IMG/VR virus record: IMGVR_UViG_3300042260_000229
Coordinates: 1 to 29,768 of that record
Direction: 5' to 3' (one strand)
DNA length: 29,768 nt
Source: a virus
This document shows, piece by piece, positions 2,976 to 29,768 of the stretch (positions within the stretch are counted from its first letter, which is position 1; each line of letters starts with the position of its first letter). The notes beneath the pieces were generated by a model that worked only from the letters and a program-made list of their open reading frames with translations, made no database searches and was not told the origin of the DNA. The position numbers and the translations under genes are program-made.

Positions 2976-4106
2976 TCATTGAGCCAGTCCAGCACGCTTA
3001 AACGCATCGGCATCACGTTGGCGCAGCTCATCTATCGTTAAAGTTCTGCCAGTCATGTCAGTGAAACTTGATATAGGTAGCTTACCTTTCAAGAACAGCT
3101 TTGCTCGTGTTGGCCCAAGTGTATCTTCAATAAACCATGACGGCTGCCGCTTAAGCCACGTATCAAATTTTGTGCCCGCTCTTACTTGTTCAATTTTAAA
3201 TTTATTCAAGTCGCGCCGACCTTTGTATTTTGGCTTCTTGCCGGTTTTTTCTTCTTGCGCCTTGAATAACCGCTCAGCTTCTTCAGTATCTTTGCCGCCA
3301 ATCGCTGGCTTCATACCATCCGGTGCTTCTTGGCCTTCAACTAAAAACAGCCACTGCGAGCGGCAACCAAAATGTGCCGGAATAGTCGGATAATCCTTTG
3401 CATCAATCGGCCATTTCTTTAGGTGGCGTCCTGCGCACAGCAAAGTAACCCTATTGTCCATCGTAGCCCAGTAAACCCTTTCGCTAAGCAAGTCTTTATT
3501 CGATACCGCAAATTGTTCGCGCCCTTCGTTGGCGTAGAATTGCACGGCGGTTCTCACAAGCGCTTCAGCTTCACGCTTCAGCAAGCCATCAACCATCGGG
3601 CGCAGGTTACGCACCATGTCATTCACAGTCTCGCCGTTGCGATAACCGCTCTTGACTAGGTTTTGAACTGTACTGATAAAGCTGCCCTGATTGCCAGCAA
3701 CAAACTCGGGCCATGTGCCAGCCTTGCTGCGCTGGTTTGACTCCAAAGCCATCAGCGCTTTCTGCATCCAATCTTTCACCTGCTGCTGTGGTGGTGTTTT
3801 CATCCGGATCCCGGCATAGCCGCCAATCAGCTCTGCGTAATAGCCGGATTCGTACACTGCCAATCCGGTCAGCTCGTTAGTTGTTTCTTCCCATGCCGGA
3901 GTAGTTGCCGCCTCGATTGCTTTGGCGATTGCCTTATTGACCAAGGAAAGTTTTGTTGCACTGCCAATCGTTTCAGCATCAAGCAGGATTAGGCGCACGG
4001 CTTCATATGCTGCGTCGTAACTTGGGAATACGCGAGTGCGCAGCAGCTCAGTCGCGATGCGCCCGAGGTAGATGCTGTGACGGTCTAGGTCTTCAGGCAA
4101 TGCCAT
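2976..4106 (-). CDS. Minor head protein, Mu gpF-like (MuF domain)
   Basis: This 376-aa protein starts at ATG 4106. Residues about 150-265 hold the MuF signature: an RTAVQFYANEGREQF helix, then a strand pair around WATMDNRVTLLCAGRHLKKWPI and IPAHFGCRSQW, with conserved Cys and His residues. Such proteins are minor capsid components near the portal and are often injected. The C-terminal third is basic and Lys-rich, with PKYKGRR and LKRQPSWF segments. It is transcribed before the portal gene, whereas the common order is portal then MuF. Its start overlaps the 59-aa gene by 14 bases. Confidence 0.83.
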   Translation of the reverse strand: MALPEDLDRHSIYLGRIATELLRTRVFPSYDAAYEAVRLILLDAETIGSATKLSLVNKAIAKAIEAATTPAWEETTNELTGLAVYESGYYAELIGGYAGIRMKTPPQQQVKDWMQKALMALESNQRSKAGTWPEFVAGNQGSFISTVQNLVKSGYRNGETVNDMVRNLRPMVDGLLKREAEALVRTAVQFYANEGREQFAVSNKDLLSERVYWATMDNRVTLLCAGRHLKKWPIDAKDYPTIPAHFGCRSQWLFLVEGQEAPDGMKPAIGGKDTEEAERLFKAQEEKTGKKPKYKGRRDLNKFKIEQVRAGTKFDTWLKRQPSWFIEDTLGPTRAKLFLKGKLPISSFTDMTGRTLTIDELRQRDADAFKRAGLAQ

Positions 4107-23661: not shown

Positions 23662-24572
23662 TACACTAACTCCCTAATTTGAATTGTTGACTTGCAGTAA
23701 CTGGGCGCGTCAATGTTTTGCTGATACTTAATATGATAGCCGTAAACTACCGTCGCGTCATCTGTGTCAGAAGTGCCAGCCCATACGCAAGGCTTGTCAA
23801 CTAGCTTGCTGATTTGGTTAATCACAAAATCCAGCTTGCTCTTTTCGACGCTAACATTGTAATTCATGAGCTTGTACTTCCTGCGCTTGGTTACTGTTAT
23901 GTCGCCAAAGTCATTTTCATCAACGCGAGACAGGTTGATATAGTCGAAAGAAGTGCCATAGCAAGCCACGCCAAGCGTTAACGACGAACCAATAACCAAA
24001 GTGCCAACCGACACCGCTGCGCTGCCAGTGACCGTTACAGTGAGTTTTGCACCTGCCGACTTTGGCATATCGTTAACAAAGAACTTGTAGCGCTGCACAA
24101 CGGGCAGGTTGAAGTATTCCCAATAGTCCAGCACTTCGCTGTTATCAATCGCATCAACGGTCTTGTCATAAGACAAAGCGCCAGTTGCTGTATGCACCTG
24201 ATAGCGCACACTAGTAACGCCAGTTGCATTAAAGATTGCTGCTGAGTTAAAGCCTTTAGGTGATGTGATCTCAACGACAACAGGCGCGGCGTGAACTGAT
24301 TGGCTTGAATTGACTTGGTCAAACATGCGGTAACGGTTTGTGTAACTAACTACAACCCATGTCGGCACAGCTTTAGCTGCGCCCACGTTTGGCGCGTCAG
24401 TTGTCACGGCGACGCACTCATACAGCAAATGCGTTGTAGTCATTATACGTCTATCGCCAATAGCGGCAGTGTAGGCAGACCAAGCAATCTCCCCAGCACT
24501 TGCGTCAGGCTCTGGAATGCTCGAAGTAGTCAGCAAGCCGCCGATAATGTCATACGGTTCAACAACAATCAC
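23661..24572 (-). CDS. Tail protein downstream of tape measure
   Basis: This 303-aa protein overlaps the tape measure stop by 4 bases and the fibre gene start by 1. It is strand-rich with segments WVVVSYTNRYRMFDQVNSSQ, YDKTVDAIDNSEVLDYWEYF and a C-terminal YCKSTIQIRELV. The NRYRMFD region is familiar from structural proteins found after phage tape measure genes, but no activity is known. It probably forms part of the tail tip. Confidence 0.7.
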   Translation of the reverse strand: MIVVEPYDIIGGLLTTSSIPEPDASAGEIAWSAYTAAIGDRRIMTTTHLLYECVAVTTDAPNVGAAKAVPTWVVVSYTNRYRMFDQVNSSQSVHAAPVVVEITSPKGFNSAAIFNATGVTSVRYQVHTATGALSYDKTVDAIDNSEVLDYWEYFNLPVVQRYKFFVNDMPKSAGAKLTVTVTGSAAVSVGTLVIGSSLTLGVACYGTSFDYINLSRVDENDFGDITVTKRRKYKLMNYNVSVEKSKLDFVINQISKLVDKPCVWAGTSDTDDATVVYGYHIKYQQNIDAPSYCKSTIQIRELV

Positions 24573-27500
24573 AGCGCAGCCTCCTGAGCTTCGTATTGGT
24601 TCAATTCTACGACATCCGCAGTTGTTTTGGTATGTTTAGCTGTCGCTTCCTGCGCGTGAAGGATTTGGGTTAACACATCAAGCATTTCCTGCGTAACGAC
24701 TTTGCCGTCAGTTGTATATCTATCCGGCATTGTTGGCGGCACCCACACGCGCCCATCAGGCTTTGTGATCTCAACAATCTGCTGACCAACTTGAACAATT
24801 GCTGCCTCAACTCGGTTGATTGCTGCGACTTGCTCTGACGCCACGCCTAAGCCTAACTCGTTAGCTGCACTCATCGCCGCATAGAATTCAATCAGTGCCT
24901 GGTCAATAGTCAGCAGCCTATCATCAACACCAAGCAGCGCATTCAGTTGCTTCTGCGCTTCAGTCAACTGCTCATCAATCTTGCCGACCTGCTCATCGTG
25001 GAGTTTTTGCGCAGCATCTGCCGCAAGGTCTAGCTTGGCGAGTTGTGCAATGTAATATTCATCTGCTGCCGTCGCTTGGTATTCAATCCATTGCAGCTGT
25101 GATTTAGCGCCACCCATCGCACCGCCGACAATACCCTGAATGCCTGCCGCTTGGTTGCGAGCAATCGCCATTGCGCGGTTCTGCTCGAATGCTGAGCTAA
25201 ACCCTGCTGAGCCTGCACCAGACACACCAGAAAGCACAGATGATAAACGCGAAGAGTCTGGCAGCAGCCCCGCCTTCGCTTCGTTATAAATCATCGCAAG
25301 CTCTTTAAATGGATTGGCTTGCGTGCCGGTATCGGACAAGAAACCGGTCAGAATATCGTTAAGACCTTCAAGCTTGTTAATGTACTGCTCGACAGCTTTC
25401 CCTTGCTCTTGGTAGCCATCAATAACTGAATCGCGCTGCTGCTTCAGCAGGTCCTTTTCTGCGTTGATTGCCTCAAGTTTTAAATCCAGCTCAGTGCCTA
25501 ACCGGTCTTTTTCGCGCTGCGCAGACTCTTGCAGTTTACCAAATGCGTTTTGTGCTGCATCGATTGCCGCTGATGCTGCATCTCTTGCTGATTGTGCGGC
25601 TGCGTCCTGTGCTGATGCAAGCTCACGCTGAGCCGCTGCTGCGTCTTCTGCCGCATAGATTTGCAGGAGTAAAGCCCGCAGCGTTTCGTCAGTTGCGTCT
25701 AATTCCATCTGACGGCGTAAAGCCAACGCCTCAGCAGACTGCCCGAGCGCATCATATAAGCGTAATTGCAGGTCTAGACCTTGCGCTTTCAGTGCTGCCG
25801 CTTTGGCTTCAGCTTCCTTACGCGCCGCCTCTGCTGCATCTTCAGACGCTTGGCGTTGTGCCTCTAAAGCGGATAAGTATTGATCCATTCCTGGCACTAA
25901 CTTCATCAGCTCAGCAAACATCTTTTGACCGGCTTCGGATGTCAAATCTAAGCCATCCACAAGCGCCCTGAATCCATCGCGCGTGTTAGGCATGGTGACA
26001 TTCAGCGTCGCAAACGATTCGCTCAGCTGTGCGACTAGATTAGCCTGCTGTTCAGCGTCTGAGTAAAATGCTGAGTAATATTGGCTAGTAAGTGCTGATA
26101 ACTGCTCAAGACCGCCAGCAAGCTCAACGATGTTGGTTGATGCAACCATTGCTGCTTTGCCGGTCAGGTCGAAGCCTAAGCCGAGCGTTTTACTGATTGA
26201 CTGCACTGCGCCCATATTGGCAGTTAAGCGAGCGACCGCATCAATGACGCCCTCGCCCTCTTTCTGCAGTCCATCAAGCGAATCACCGAAAACAGCGTTG
26301 ACTAATGCGCCGGTTGTGTTGCCAACCCATTCTTCGATTGCTGCTTGAATCTCAGCTTCTGACTTGTCTTTGATGTTGATGTTAGCCGCAGCGGTGAAAC
26401 CTTTGATGATTTCGTCAGCGCCAGTAATGCCGAAAGCGTTAGCTGCTTGACCAAGTGCAGATGAGATTGCATCGAATGCCGAATCGATGGCGGAAGCGTC
26501 ATAGCCTGTAGTGCTTGTGCGTGTTTTTGTGCCACGGAACAGCGAGCGCTTACGGCTCTCCTCTGTGGTGATTGAGCCGGTAATATCTCCGCCGCCTAAT
26601 GACAATCCTAGCGACTGGCCGGTAGTTTTAAACGATGAGCCAAATAGTCCGCCGCCTGATAGCTTTTGAATGCCAGCCAATGCAGCGCCAAGGCCTGCAA
26701 TGATAGGCGTCGCCATGCCAAGACCAGCCATGATATTTCCAGAGCCAAGCAAGGAGCCAGCGCCGCTAAACAGCGTGCCGAATTGACCAGCGCCAACCAA
26801 TGCACCGCCGCCCATTAAGCCTCCGCCGAATGAGCCCCCGATTAAACTGCCAAGCCCGGTAATGCCACCGCCGATACTTCCGAGCAGCCCTAAGCCGGAT
26901 GCAGCGCCACCAATGCTTGATGCGCTAGCTCCGCCAGGTAACATACCACCCATACCCATGCTAATCATAATTGGGCGGGTAAGTGCCATATGCGCCATCT
27001 CAGCAAGCATGCGCTTGAATGCGTTTTTCATGCCGTCAACGACAGATTCGAAGCCATCAAAAGCATTCATCCACGCATCTGCAAATGCTTCCTCTATACG
27101 CTCTGCTGCTTTTTCGCTTACACCAACATATCTGTCAATATCCTCAATTGCCTTGTCGATTCGCTCCATCTCTGCAACCGCATTTTCCTCTGCGATTCTA
27201 TCCATTTCTTCAAGGCCAGACTCTATCTCGTCATACCAGTATTCATCCCAGCCATCCTGAATTCTTTGAATATTAGCCATTTCCTTGGCAAGCTCTTTGG
27301 CTGACTTTGTAGCAGATTTTACTGCTAAAGTTTGCCCTGTAATTGGAGGTAGACTGTCATCAAACGCCTTATTCATCCCTTCTATTTTTGCCTGCAATGC
27401 AGCCTTTTCTTTTCCAAGCTCAGAAATAACCCTAGCTTGATTTGCGGTTGCGGTTGTATTGCCGAACATCCCAGTGCCTGTCTGCTTCATTGCTTCTTGG

Positions 27501-28723
27501 AGTTTTTTCTCTTCATCAATGAGCTGCCGCTCAATATCTATAATTCTTTGTTGCGCAGCGACATACTGTTGCGCCCTAGCTGCGTTGCTTGAGCGTTCCC
27601 ACTCCTGATTTAGCTTTTCAGTAGCTAATCTTGCCGAGTCCGCATCTTTAGCGTAAGAGTCAAACGCAATTGCAGCGGCACCAGCCGCCGTAATAACCAA
27701 GCCAAGCGGACCCATCAGCAATCTCGTTGCCGCAGTTAGCGCGTATGTTGCTGTAGTAACTCCGGCAGTTGCAGCACCAAGAGCAATATTCGCAGCAGCC
27801 GCTCGACCAGCAGACAGAACCCATGCCCCGCCAAGTATTGACGCGCCAACCCCAAGCGCTCTCGCTAGAGGCTCAAGGTTTTCACTGACGGATAGCAAGC
27901 TAGAGCCAACAGACTCAGTTACAGCTTGCAATGACTTGCTACTACCAACCCACTCAGTGATGTTTGCTTGAATTATTTCGTTAGTTTGCGCAAAGGTCCG
28001 CTGAGTAACGCCAACCATTTTATCTGCTTCGGTTGCGTAACCCTCTAGCGCCTTAACCATCATCTCGGCTGTAATACCGCCTGTTGCAGCAAACTCTCTA
28101 AGCTCTCCGCGAGTCATGTTTAACTGTTTTGCTAAGGCGTCAAGTATTCTAGGCGCACCCTCTGCCACAGAGTTAAACTCGTCGCCGCGCAACGCGCCAG
28201 CGGCCAAGGCTTGAGCAAGCTGCCTGATAGATCCAGACGCTTCAGCTGCTGACTTGCCACCAGCCAGAAACAGTTTGTTTATTGTGCCTGTCACGCCAAG
28301 AACTCGCTCTGATGACAATCCGAGGTCAGACGTTGCGCGTGTAAGCTCGCCGTATAGTTCGGCGGTAGACAGTAGGTTTGAGTTTGTTTGCTTGGCTAGC
28401 GCCAATACTGACTGCTGAGCCTTAATAAAATCAGCTTCAGATGTCGTAACCTGCCTTAGCACGTTGTTGAACGATTTCCAGCCATCTGAGTACTGAATAA
28501 CCTGACCAACTGAAACAGTAGCAGCAAGAGCGCCCAGCCCAGCAGTTAAGGATGAAACTGCGGCAGTTGAAGACCTAAAAGAATCTGACATACCTTTGTT
28601 GGCGTCATTTATCTTTCTTTCAGTTTGCTCGCCTGTACTGCCTAGCTTCTTTAACTTTACGTCTGCTTGGTCTAAGTCTCTAGTATCGGCGCGGAAGCCA
28701 ATAGTTGCCAGTGTATCAGTCAT
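24569..28723 (-). CDS. Tape measure protein
   Basis: This 1384-aa protein starts at ATG 28723 with GAGGG 6 bases upstream. Residues about 75-260 hold the tape measure domain (NNVLRQVTTSEADFIKAQQS..., GAPRILDALAKQLNMTRGEL...). Hydrophobic helices lie at about 290-350, a Gly-rich stretch at about 588-690 (GMGGMLPGGASASSIGGAAS) and long Ala-rich coiled coils at about 950-1120. It sets tail length and passes into the cell envelope with the DNA. At the usual 0.15 nm per residue the tail would be about 200 nm, which fits a siphovirus. No peptidase motif was recognised. Confidence 0.92.
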   Translation of the reverse strand: MTDTLATIGFRADTRDLDQADVKLKKLGSTGEQTERKINDANKGMSDSFRSSTAAVSSLTAGLGALAATVSVGQVIQYSDGWKSFNNVLRQVTTSEADFIKAQQSVLALAKQTNSNLLSTAELYGELTRATSDLGLSSERVLGVTGTINKLFLAGGKSAAEASGSIRQLAQALAAGALRGDEFNSVAEGAPRILDALAKQLNMTRGELREFAATGGITAEMMVKALEGYATEADKMVGVTQRTFAQTNEIIQANITEWVGSSKSLQAVTESVGSSLLSVSENLEPLARALGVGASILGGAWVLSAGRAAAANIALGAATAGVTTATYALTAATRLLMGPLGLVITAAGAAAIAFDSYAKDADSARLATEKLNQEWERSSNAARAQQYVAAQQRIIDIERQLIDEEKKLQEAMKQTGTGMFGNTTATANQARVISELGKEKAALQAKIEGMNKAFDDSLPPITGQTLAVKSATKSAKELAKEMANIQRIQDGWDEYWYDEIESGLEEMDRIAEENAVAEMERIDKAIEDIDRYVGVSEKAAERIEEAFADAWMNAFDGFESVVDGMKNAFKRMLAEMAHMALTRPIMISMGMGGMLPGGASASSIGGAASGLGLLGSIGGGITGLGSLIGGSFGGGLMGGGALVGAGQFGTLFSGAGSLLGSGNIMAGLGMATPIIAGLGAALAGIQKLSGGGLFGSSFKTTGQSLGLSLGGGDITGSITTEESRKRSLFRGTKTRTSTTGYDASAIDSAFDAISSALGQAANAFGITGADEIIKGFTAAANINIKDKSEAEIQAAIEEWVGNTTGALVNAVFGDSLDGLQKEGEGVIDAVARLTANMGAVQSISKTLGLGFDLTGKAAMVASTNIVELAGGLEQLSALTSQYYSAFYSDAEQQANLVAQLSESFATLNVTMPNTRDGFRALVDGLDLTSEAGQKMFAELMKLVPGMDQYLSALEAQRQASEDAAEAARKEAEAKAAALKAQGLDLQLRLYDALGQSAEALALRRQMELDATDETLRALLLQIYAAEDAAAAQRELASAQDAAAQSARDAASAAIDAAQNAFGKLQESAQREKDRLGTELDLKLEAINAEKDLLKQQRDSVIDGYQEQGKAVEQYINKLEGLNDILTGFLSDTGTQANPFKELAMIYNEAKAGLLPDSSRLSSVLSGVSGAGSAGFSSAFEQNRAMAIARNQAAGIQGIVGGAMGGAKSQLQWIEYQATAADEYYIAQLAKLDLAADAAQKLHDEQVGKIDEQLTEAQKQLNALLGVDDRLLTIDQALIEFYAAMSAANELGLGVASEQVAAINRVEAAIVQVGQQIVEITKPDGRVWVPPTMPDRYTTDGKVVTQEMLDVLTQILHAQEATAKHTKTTADVVELNQYEAQEAAL

Positions 28724-28822: not shown

Positions 28823-29134
28823 ATGAACAAGTTTATTATCGTGTCATTGGCTTTGTTATCGCTAAACGTGTCTGCAAACTGTCAATTAATATCATCGCTG
28901 TCATCGGCTGTAATGAAGGCGCGGCAAGCGGGCGTCAGCAAAGAACATTTAGTTATGCGCGCTAGCGATGCTCCAGAAAGCATAAAGCCGCTTTATTTGG
29001 GATTGATTGATGACGCATATAAGACGCCAGTAATGAAGTCAAAAGATGATGCAGACCGAGAGGTGCGCAAATATGAAGGCGAAATGCTTGCTCTTTGCGT
29101 CGGTGGGTTGCTGAAAAACAAAAAGCCTCACTAG
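28823..29134 (+). CDS. Secreted protein on opposite strand (moron candidate)
   Basis: This 103-aa protein starts at ATG 28823, 5 bases after GGAGT. It has a clear Sec signal peptide (MNKFIIVSLALLSLNVSA, cleavage before Asn19); the residue before Cys20 is Asn, so it is not a lipoprotein. The mature part is helical and charged with Cys20 and Cys92, which could form a disulfide. It stands alone, opposite to the tail operon between tape measure and chaperone genes, with its own -10-like TAGCAT preceded by TG (28791-28796). Such genes often alter the host surface or block superinfection. No family recognised. Confidence 0.72.
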   Translation: MNKFIIVSLALLSLNVSANCQLISSLSSAVMKARQAGVSKEHLVMRASDAPESIKPLYLGLIDDAYKTPVMKSKDDADREVRKYEGEMLALCVGGLLKNKKPH

Positions 29135-29140
29135 GAGGCT
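29121..29140 (-). terminator. Terminator at the convergent moron/GT gene ends
   Basis: AGCCTC (29124-29129), loop ACTAG, GAGGCT (29135-29140); on the minus strand T5GT5 follows. The loop contains the CTAG in which both converging stop codons lie. It would stop transcription from the G/GT genes before the tape measure gene, at least in part. Confidence 0.6.
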
Positions 29141-29544
29141 CTCATCATCGCTTTCATGCGTTTGGCGTTAATCGCCTGTATTTCCTTCAGCTTGTCAGCA
29201 TCTGGAATAATCGGCGGGTCAATGGTGCTGTCTTGGCTCGTTTTGCTGTACCAACCGCAGTAGGCGTTAGACATTGCGCGTAAAGCGCCAAACTCCCACG
29301 AATCTGCATTGGTTCCTGATAAGTCAGACCACGCTTTAATCTCTGACCAGCTCAGCGGCTCAGGTCCATTGAATCCGCGAGCATACCAACCCAAATCACT
29401 AAACCAACCGGCTATATACTCACAAGGCGCTTCAGGGAGCCACGCAGCGTCACCGTAAATATCTCTGAACGTGTCGTGTGAATCCTTGTGTGGCGCATGA
29501 AGCCAGCCATAATAACCAGCCCATGCGCACAGGTCTTGCGTTAC
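29131..29544 (-). CDS. Tail assembly chaperone T-extension (made by -1 frameshift)
   Basis: This 137-codon frame opens exactly at the slippery heptamer of the G gene (GTA at 29544-29542, VTQDLCAWAGYYGWLHAP...) and stays open to TAG 29131. It has no ATG, GTG or TTG for its first 50 codons; the first start-type codon is a TTG at 29394 with no ribosome site. It is thus almost surely translated only as the tail of a G-T fusion, as in lambda gpGT. The T part recruits the tail tube subunit onto the tape measure. It is rich in Trp (WLHAP, WLPEAP, GWFSDLGWYARGF). Immediately downstream lies the tape measure region, the normal order. Confidence 0.82.
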   Translation of the reverse strand, partial: VTQDLCAWAGYYGWLHAPHKDSHDTFRDIYGDAAWLPEAPCEYIAGWFSDLGWYARGFNGPEPLSWSEIKAWSDLSGTNADSWEFGALRAMSNAYCGWYSKTSQDSTIDPPIIPDADKLKEIQAINAKRMKAMMRAS

Positions 29545-29768
29545 TTTTTTACGTAGTTGTTCCGGTCGCTGATGAACTTATCGACCTGCTCGTAAACGAC
29601 TGGGTATTTCTCGTAAAACTCAATAGCCTGCTCTTGGCTGAACTTCTCTTTGAAGTTTTCCCAGCCTTGAGTTAGCTCAGCGACAAACTCGATGTTGATT
29701 TTGCGAAGCGCTTCAACGTCAGATTCGGTTGGCAATGCGTCTTTGTGGCGTTTTTTGTTGATAACATC
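29541..29768 (-). CDS. Tail assembly chaperone G, partial (N-terminus outside window)
   Basis: The frame enters from the right edge (DVINKKRHKDALPTESDVEA...) and ends at TAA 29541, leaving 75 visible residues. It is acidic and helical (EALRKINIEFVAELTQGWEN, EQAIEFYEKYPVVYEQVDKF) like phage tail assembly chaperones that precede the tape measure gene. Internal TTG codons are not the real start because the frame stays open to the edge. The last codons are AAA AAG TAA within a slippery heptamer. Confidence 0.8.
   Translation of the reverse strand, partial: DVINKKRHKDALPTESDVEALRKINIEFVAELTQGWENFKEKFSQEQAIEFYEKYPVVYEQVDKFISDRNNYVKK
29544..29550 (-). promoter_or_regulatory. Slippery heptamer A-AAA-AAG for -1 frameshift
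   Basis: On the minus strand the codons GTA AAA AAG TAA place A-AAA-AAG in exactly the X-XXY-YYZ phase, directly before the G stop codon. A -1 slip moves the ribosome to GTA ACG CAA GAC, the T frame. This heptamer is among the most shift-prone in E. coli. No strong stimulatory hairpin was found in the next 40 bases by eye. Confidence 0.82.

Follow-up and report, generated by a model that had tools for sequence, protein, structure and literature searches.

A predicted -1 frameshift joining the G and T tail assembly chaperone frames of a siphovirus-like phage

Genes and reading frames at the locus

The DNA analyzed here, referred to as the window, is a complete IMG/VR record of 29,768 bases from a virus in a metagenomic collection. 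At its high-numbered end lies a pair of overlapping open reading frames, the second in the -1 frame relative to the first, upstream of the tape measure gene, which is the gene order expected of a G/GT tail chaperone pair (Table 1). Terminase, portal, and capsid genes are located elsewhere on the contig. The 5′ end of the G gene lies off the contig end, and the window retains only its last 75 codons. The two contig ends (1-682 and 29541-29768) fall inside the genes for the major head protein and for G, respectively, and the contig may therefore be close to a whole genome, perhaps lacking a short stretch between the ends that would carry the rest of the capsid genes, the connectors, and the major tail protein. 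The opposite-strand gene that separates T from the tape measure gene is likewise present at this position in Vibrio phage K67.

Table 1. Features of the G/T region and its surroundings in the window
Feature	Coordinates	Strand	Basis or remark
G-type tail assembly chaperone gene, final 75 codons plus TAA	29541..29768	-	Phage_TAC_4 and PHROG tail assembly chaperone matches
Slippery heptamer A-AAA-AAG	29544..29550	-	in phase with G, abuts TAA at 29541-29543; same in L002 and L008
T extension, -1 frame, 137 codons and stop (29131-29133)	29131..29544	-	Phage_TAC_18, PHROG 18915, purifying selection
Initial 50 T codons, without ATG, GTG, or TTG	29395..29544	-	14/14 substitutions between window and L002 synonymous
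Putative RNA stem-loop, about 10 nt 3′ of the heptamer (candidate stimulator only)	29483..29533	-	folding
Tape measure protein gene, downstream of G/T	24569..28723	-	PHROG tail length tape measure, E=2.5e-75; Pfam TMP_3, E=6.3e-50
Small ORF on the opposite strand, between T and the tape measure gene	28823-29134	+	signal-peptide-like start; PHROG 2315, unknown function

Both parts of the overlapping pair belong to recognizable chaperone families. The 75 residues of G present in the window match Pfam Phage_TAC_4 (PF08748) by a narrow margin (22.1 bits against a gathering threshold of 21.1, E=1.9e-4), as does the complete G of the related contig L002 (21.6 bits, same threshold), and the G part also matches a PHROG tail assembly chaperone family with E=5.8e-7. 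The T part matches Pfam Phage_TAC_18 (PF23812; 31.6 bits against a gathering threshold of 27, E=1.8e-7) and PHROG 18915 (E=3.1e-13).

A first-pass annotation, made from the nucleotide sequence, had claimed that G ends in GTA AAA AAG TAA, that the heptamer within this end is correctly phased, and that it opens onto a -1 frame of 137 codons whose first 50 contain no usable start codon. Each of these statements was confirmed. The G end is read on the minus strand at 29552-29541, in the longer context AAC TAC GTA AAA AAG TAA, with A-AAA-AAG (29550-29544) in frame with the upstream ORF and followed immediately by TAA (29543-29541). This places an in-phase heptamer of the X XXY YYZ form inside the overlap of G and T. 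The -1 frame is open from 29544 to its stop at 29133-29131 and is in fact already open from 29577, upstream of the heptamer; the other two frames across T contain 7 to 13 stops. Counting T codons from 0, no ATG, GTG, or TTG appears until a TTG at codon 50 (29394); a CTG occupies codon 4.

The RNA downstream of the heptamer folds in the window with a predicted energy of -23 kcal/mol and a z score of only -0.7 to -1.9 relative to shuffled sequences. The stem fold is similar in L002 and different in L008. With a stability not clearly beyond that of shuffles and a shape that is lost in L008, a conserved RNA stimulator was dropped from the model.

Coding evidence from near relatives

Two related phage contigs that hold both parts, L002 and L008, formed the near-kin comparison. 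The T of L002 is 94% identical to that of the window, and its whole G homologue is 145 aa long. L008 is more diverged, with a T 50% identical to the window (68/137) and a G 79% identical to that of L002. A-AAA-AAG abutting TAA is kept in both contigs; the codon preceding the heptamer is GTA in the window and TTA in L002.

The startless first 50 codons of T provide the most direct evidence for coding in the -1 frame. Between the window and L002 this stretch has accumulated 14 synonymous and 0 nonsynonymous substitutions, which fall on the three codon positions of the -1 frame as 0/0/14. The chance that all 14 would be third-position changes under an even spread is (1/3)^14, or about 2e-7. Comparison of the same codons with L008 gives a dN/dS of about 0.2. 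As every one of the 14 changes is synonymous and in the third position, the startless stretch is translated in the -1 frame. On this comparative evidence T is translated from the slip site onward, and entry from G by slippage is the simplest route.

Slip sites across the family and in known systems

An alignment of five T sequences was used to find 80 viral loci, which were picked on T similarity alone, ignoring G and the heptamer. Addition of Salicola phage CGphi29, Acinetobacter phage Effie, Vibrio phage K67, the window, and L008 resulted in a set of 59 non-redundant loci. A locus was scored as -1 when T was shifted by -1 relative to an upstream ORF that overlapped it and had at least 60 codons; the heptamer search looked for in-phase X XXY YYZ motifs among the final 16 codons of G, wherever the T frame was open. 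The -1 arrangement was scored in 56/59 relatives, and a canonical in-phase heptamer was present in 47 of these 56 overlaps, compared with 2.6 on average and at most 7 when the codons of the G genes were shuffled 200 times. Likewise, in-phase heptamers occupy 9.0% of overlap codons against 0.35% of codons elsewhere in G, and the two wrong phases of the overlaps have rates of 0.5-0.8%.

The motifs themselves are diverse. A AAT TTT is the commonest (21 loci), with T TTT TTN, G GGA AAC or AAG, C CCA AAA, and others also represented, and the distance from slip site to stop ranges among relatives from 1 to 11 codons. The remaining 9 of the 56 have the -1 overlap and no canonical heptamer, and the exact form of the site is therefore not required family-wide. 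When 13 G-T fusions were built at their predicted sites, the alignment ran gap-free through the junction. Most of these members are predicted to slip on an Asn-Phe pair (AAT TTT), whereas the window lineage has Asn-Tyr at that pair and a predicted slip three codons later, at Lys-Lys. The predicted slip site of this lineage differs in both sequence and position, with the frame relation the same. Conservation of the heptamer, which the first-pass annotation had named as a check, with its loss in relatives as a refutation, thus holds in the closest relatives and gives way farther out, where sites shift in sequence and place and the -1 arrangement persists. Such turnover around a constant frame relation is the usual pattern in genes of this kind, and non-conservation of the heptamer is too strict a refuting test.

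The three relatives scored as +1 are L053, L062, and L068. Inspection showed that in L053 a longer spurious ORF masks a true -1 overlap with A AAT TTT, and the +1 score was rejected; in L062 the matched segment sits in a different frame from the T start. A search of plasmid records for relatives yielded no match.

Several relatives have G ends of individual interest. A subgroup (L017 at 3658, L020 at 3407, and L018, L022, and L047, each at 4001) ends G with GAA/GAG CTT TTT AAG GCA/GCT TAA; its T and G overlap by only 7 nt, without a canonical heptamer, and a TAA in the -1 frame at the usual slip position blocks a simple -1 slip there. In Vibrio phage K67 (L006, 2455-2504), as in numerous similar Vibrio phages, T is -1 relative to G, and the overlap offers only the non-canonical candidates A ACT TTT and C AAA AAC. 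In L013, the G end, right before the T match at 4001, carries three in-phase heptamers that overlap one another: T TTT TTG, T TTG GGA, and G GGA AAG. The last of these is the lambda site, and it abuts TAA.

Phage lambda and many other tailed phages make a short and a long tail chaperone through a -1 slip. Lambda G/GT, with its G-GGA-AAG site, had been proposed as the model for the window, and the likeness is clear in arrangement and in the roles after which the genes are named: a short chaperone before the tape measure gene, a -1 extension near its 3′ end, and a T domain of similar length to the 137 codons found here. The model does not extend to homology. Searches of both parts against lambda G and T detected none (blastp gave nothing better than E 7.5, and hhalign a probability of 0.2), and the resemblance is therefore one of architecture only. 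Two differences of detail were also seen. The lambda slip site lies 6 codons before the stop, in contrast to the abutting site of the window, and in lambda a GTG, the annotated T start, overlaps the heptamer end (AAAGTG...), where the window has 50 codons without ATG, GTG, or TTG.

CGphi29, Effie, and Vibrio phages including K67 have a homologous T that lies in -1 relative to a preceding G. In CGphi29 and Effie the canonical heptamer is A AAT TTT, three codons upstream of the window site in the alignment; K67 differs in having no canonical heptamer.

Other phages can be compared with the window by site only. Burkholderia phage AH2 has the same predicted heptamer, AAAAAAG, and Burkholderia phage KL1 a predicted GGGAAAC directly before the TGA stop of G, although neither is reported with both features (PMC3483164). 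AAAAAAG is also the predicted G/GT slip site of seven Paenibacillus larvae phages (PMC6003738), and it is listed as predicted for VT1-Sakai, PVL, ul36, and others in a passage citing Xu et al. (PMC3483164). Frameshifted G/GT genes are described as widespread among tailed phages in a statement that cites Xu et al. 2004, and A-AAA-AAG is among the most shift-prone heptamers in E. coli, where dnaX uses it (PMC5009743). Neither A-AAA-AAG as a tail-chaperone slip site nor a site abutting the stop is new, both having been reported earlier, and the locus is best seen as a well-supported, ordinary example of a known mechanism.

Proposed mechanism and alternative explanations

We consider it about 95% probable, on the sequence comparisons above, that the locus encodes the paired G/GT tail assembly chaperones of a phage with a long tail (siphovirus-like), joined by -1 slippage. 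The programmed frameshift proposed in the first-pass annotation is supported by the protein families, the gene order, the synonymous evolution of the -1 frame, the retention of the site in L002 and L008, and the family-wide -1 overlap with its heptamers. From these observations we infer the slippage itself and, through the following model, its rate and the roles of G and G-T. The majority of ribosomes would stop at TAA and release G. A minority would move back one base on A-AAA-AAG, so that the two tRNA-Lys exchange their AAA-AAG pairing for AAA-AAA, and would read 137 further codons to produce a G-T fusion, predicted at 282 aa in L002, which is the closest relative whose G is complete. If lambda is a guide, G would coat the tape measure protein, the major tail protein would be recruited by the T part, and neither G nor G-T need be in the virion.

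The position of the stop suggests an extension of this model with which frameshifting is fully compatible, namely that the TAA abutting the heptamer makes the G:GT ratio hinge on competition between release factor and slippage, for which this heptamer would be a natural test case. On bacterial ribosomes, frameshifting at the HIV-1 slippery sequence fell when a stop codon followed it directly and was abolished by extra matching release factor (PMC4373837). By analogy with that result, it is plausible that termination sets the ratio in the window phage, where TAA abuts the site as it does in L002 and L008. However, the stop lies farther from the site in other family members, so that the arrangement is not general, and slippage before translocation of the second tRNA would leave the stop outside the A site. 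We regard the extension as possible but less likely to hold than to fail. A related evolutionary scenario is more speculative and, to our minds, doubtful: the window lineage may have lost the commoner A AAT TTT, and a stronger A-AAA-AAG may have arisen three codons downstream at the TAA, with release-factor competition lowering a high slip rate to the small fraction needed for tail assembly.

Ribosomal frameshifting on A-AAA-AAG must also be weighed against other routes to the T frame. The frames could be fused by RNA polymerase slippage on the A6 run, since runs of A are known sites of such slippage. The run here has six A, shorter than the runs of more than 7 named as transcriptional slippage sites (PMC3711429), and most relatives have sites without a long single-base run (A AAT TTT, G GGA AAC), which makes this route very improbable. 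Slightly less probable still is that T is a gene of its own, translated by coupling to G termination from the TTG at 29394 or from a rarer start. That TTG and the CTG at T codon 4 are indeed available, but purifying selection in the -1 frame is strong across the 50 codons ahead of the TTG, and no start is conserved: in L008 the first start codon is an ATG at another place, and the CTG of codon 4 is CTA. Finally, indels are common at six-A runs and the virus record is metagenomic, but a sequencing error or a decayed gene as the source of the frame change is refuted by the other contigs, with L002 and L008 carrying the same site amid diverged surroundings and the relatives overlapping in the same -1 sense.

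Joining G to T by slippage also corrects the annotation of this region. A start-codon-based approach, as the first-pass annotation anticipated, recovers only an 87-aa ORF (29131..29394) beginning at the TTG and misses the fusion. Deposited relatives show the same omission, listing T as a hypothetical protein with a late start: the CGphi29, Effie, and Vibrio records present G and T as two hypothetical proteins, and in L004 (2537-2965), L005 (2624-2944), and L006 (2519-2923) the deposited T is annotated separately, as hypothetical, with its start after the G stop.
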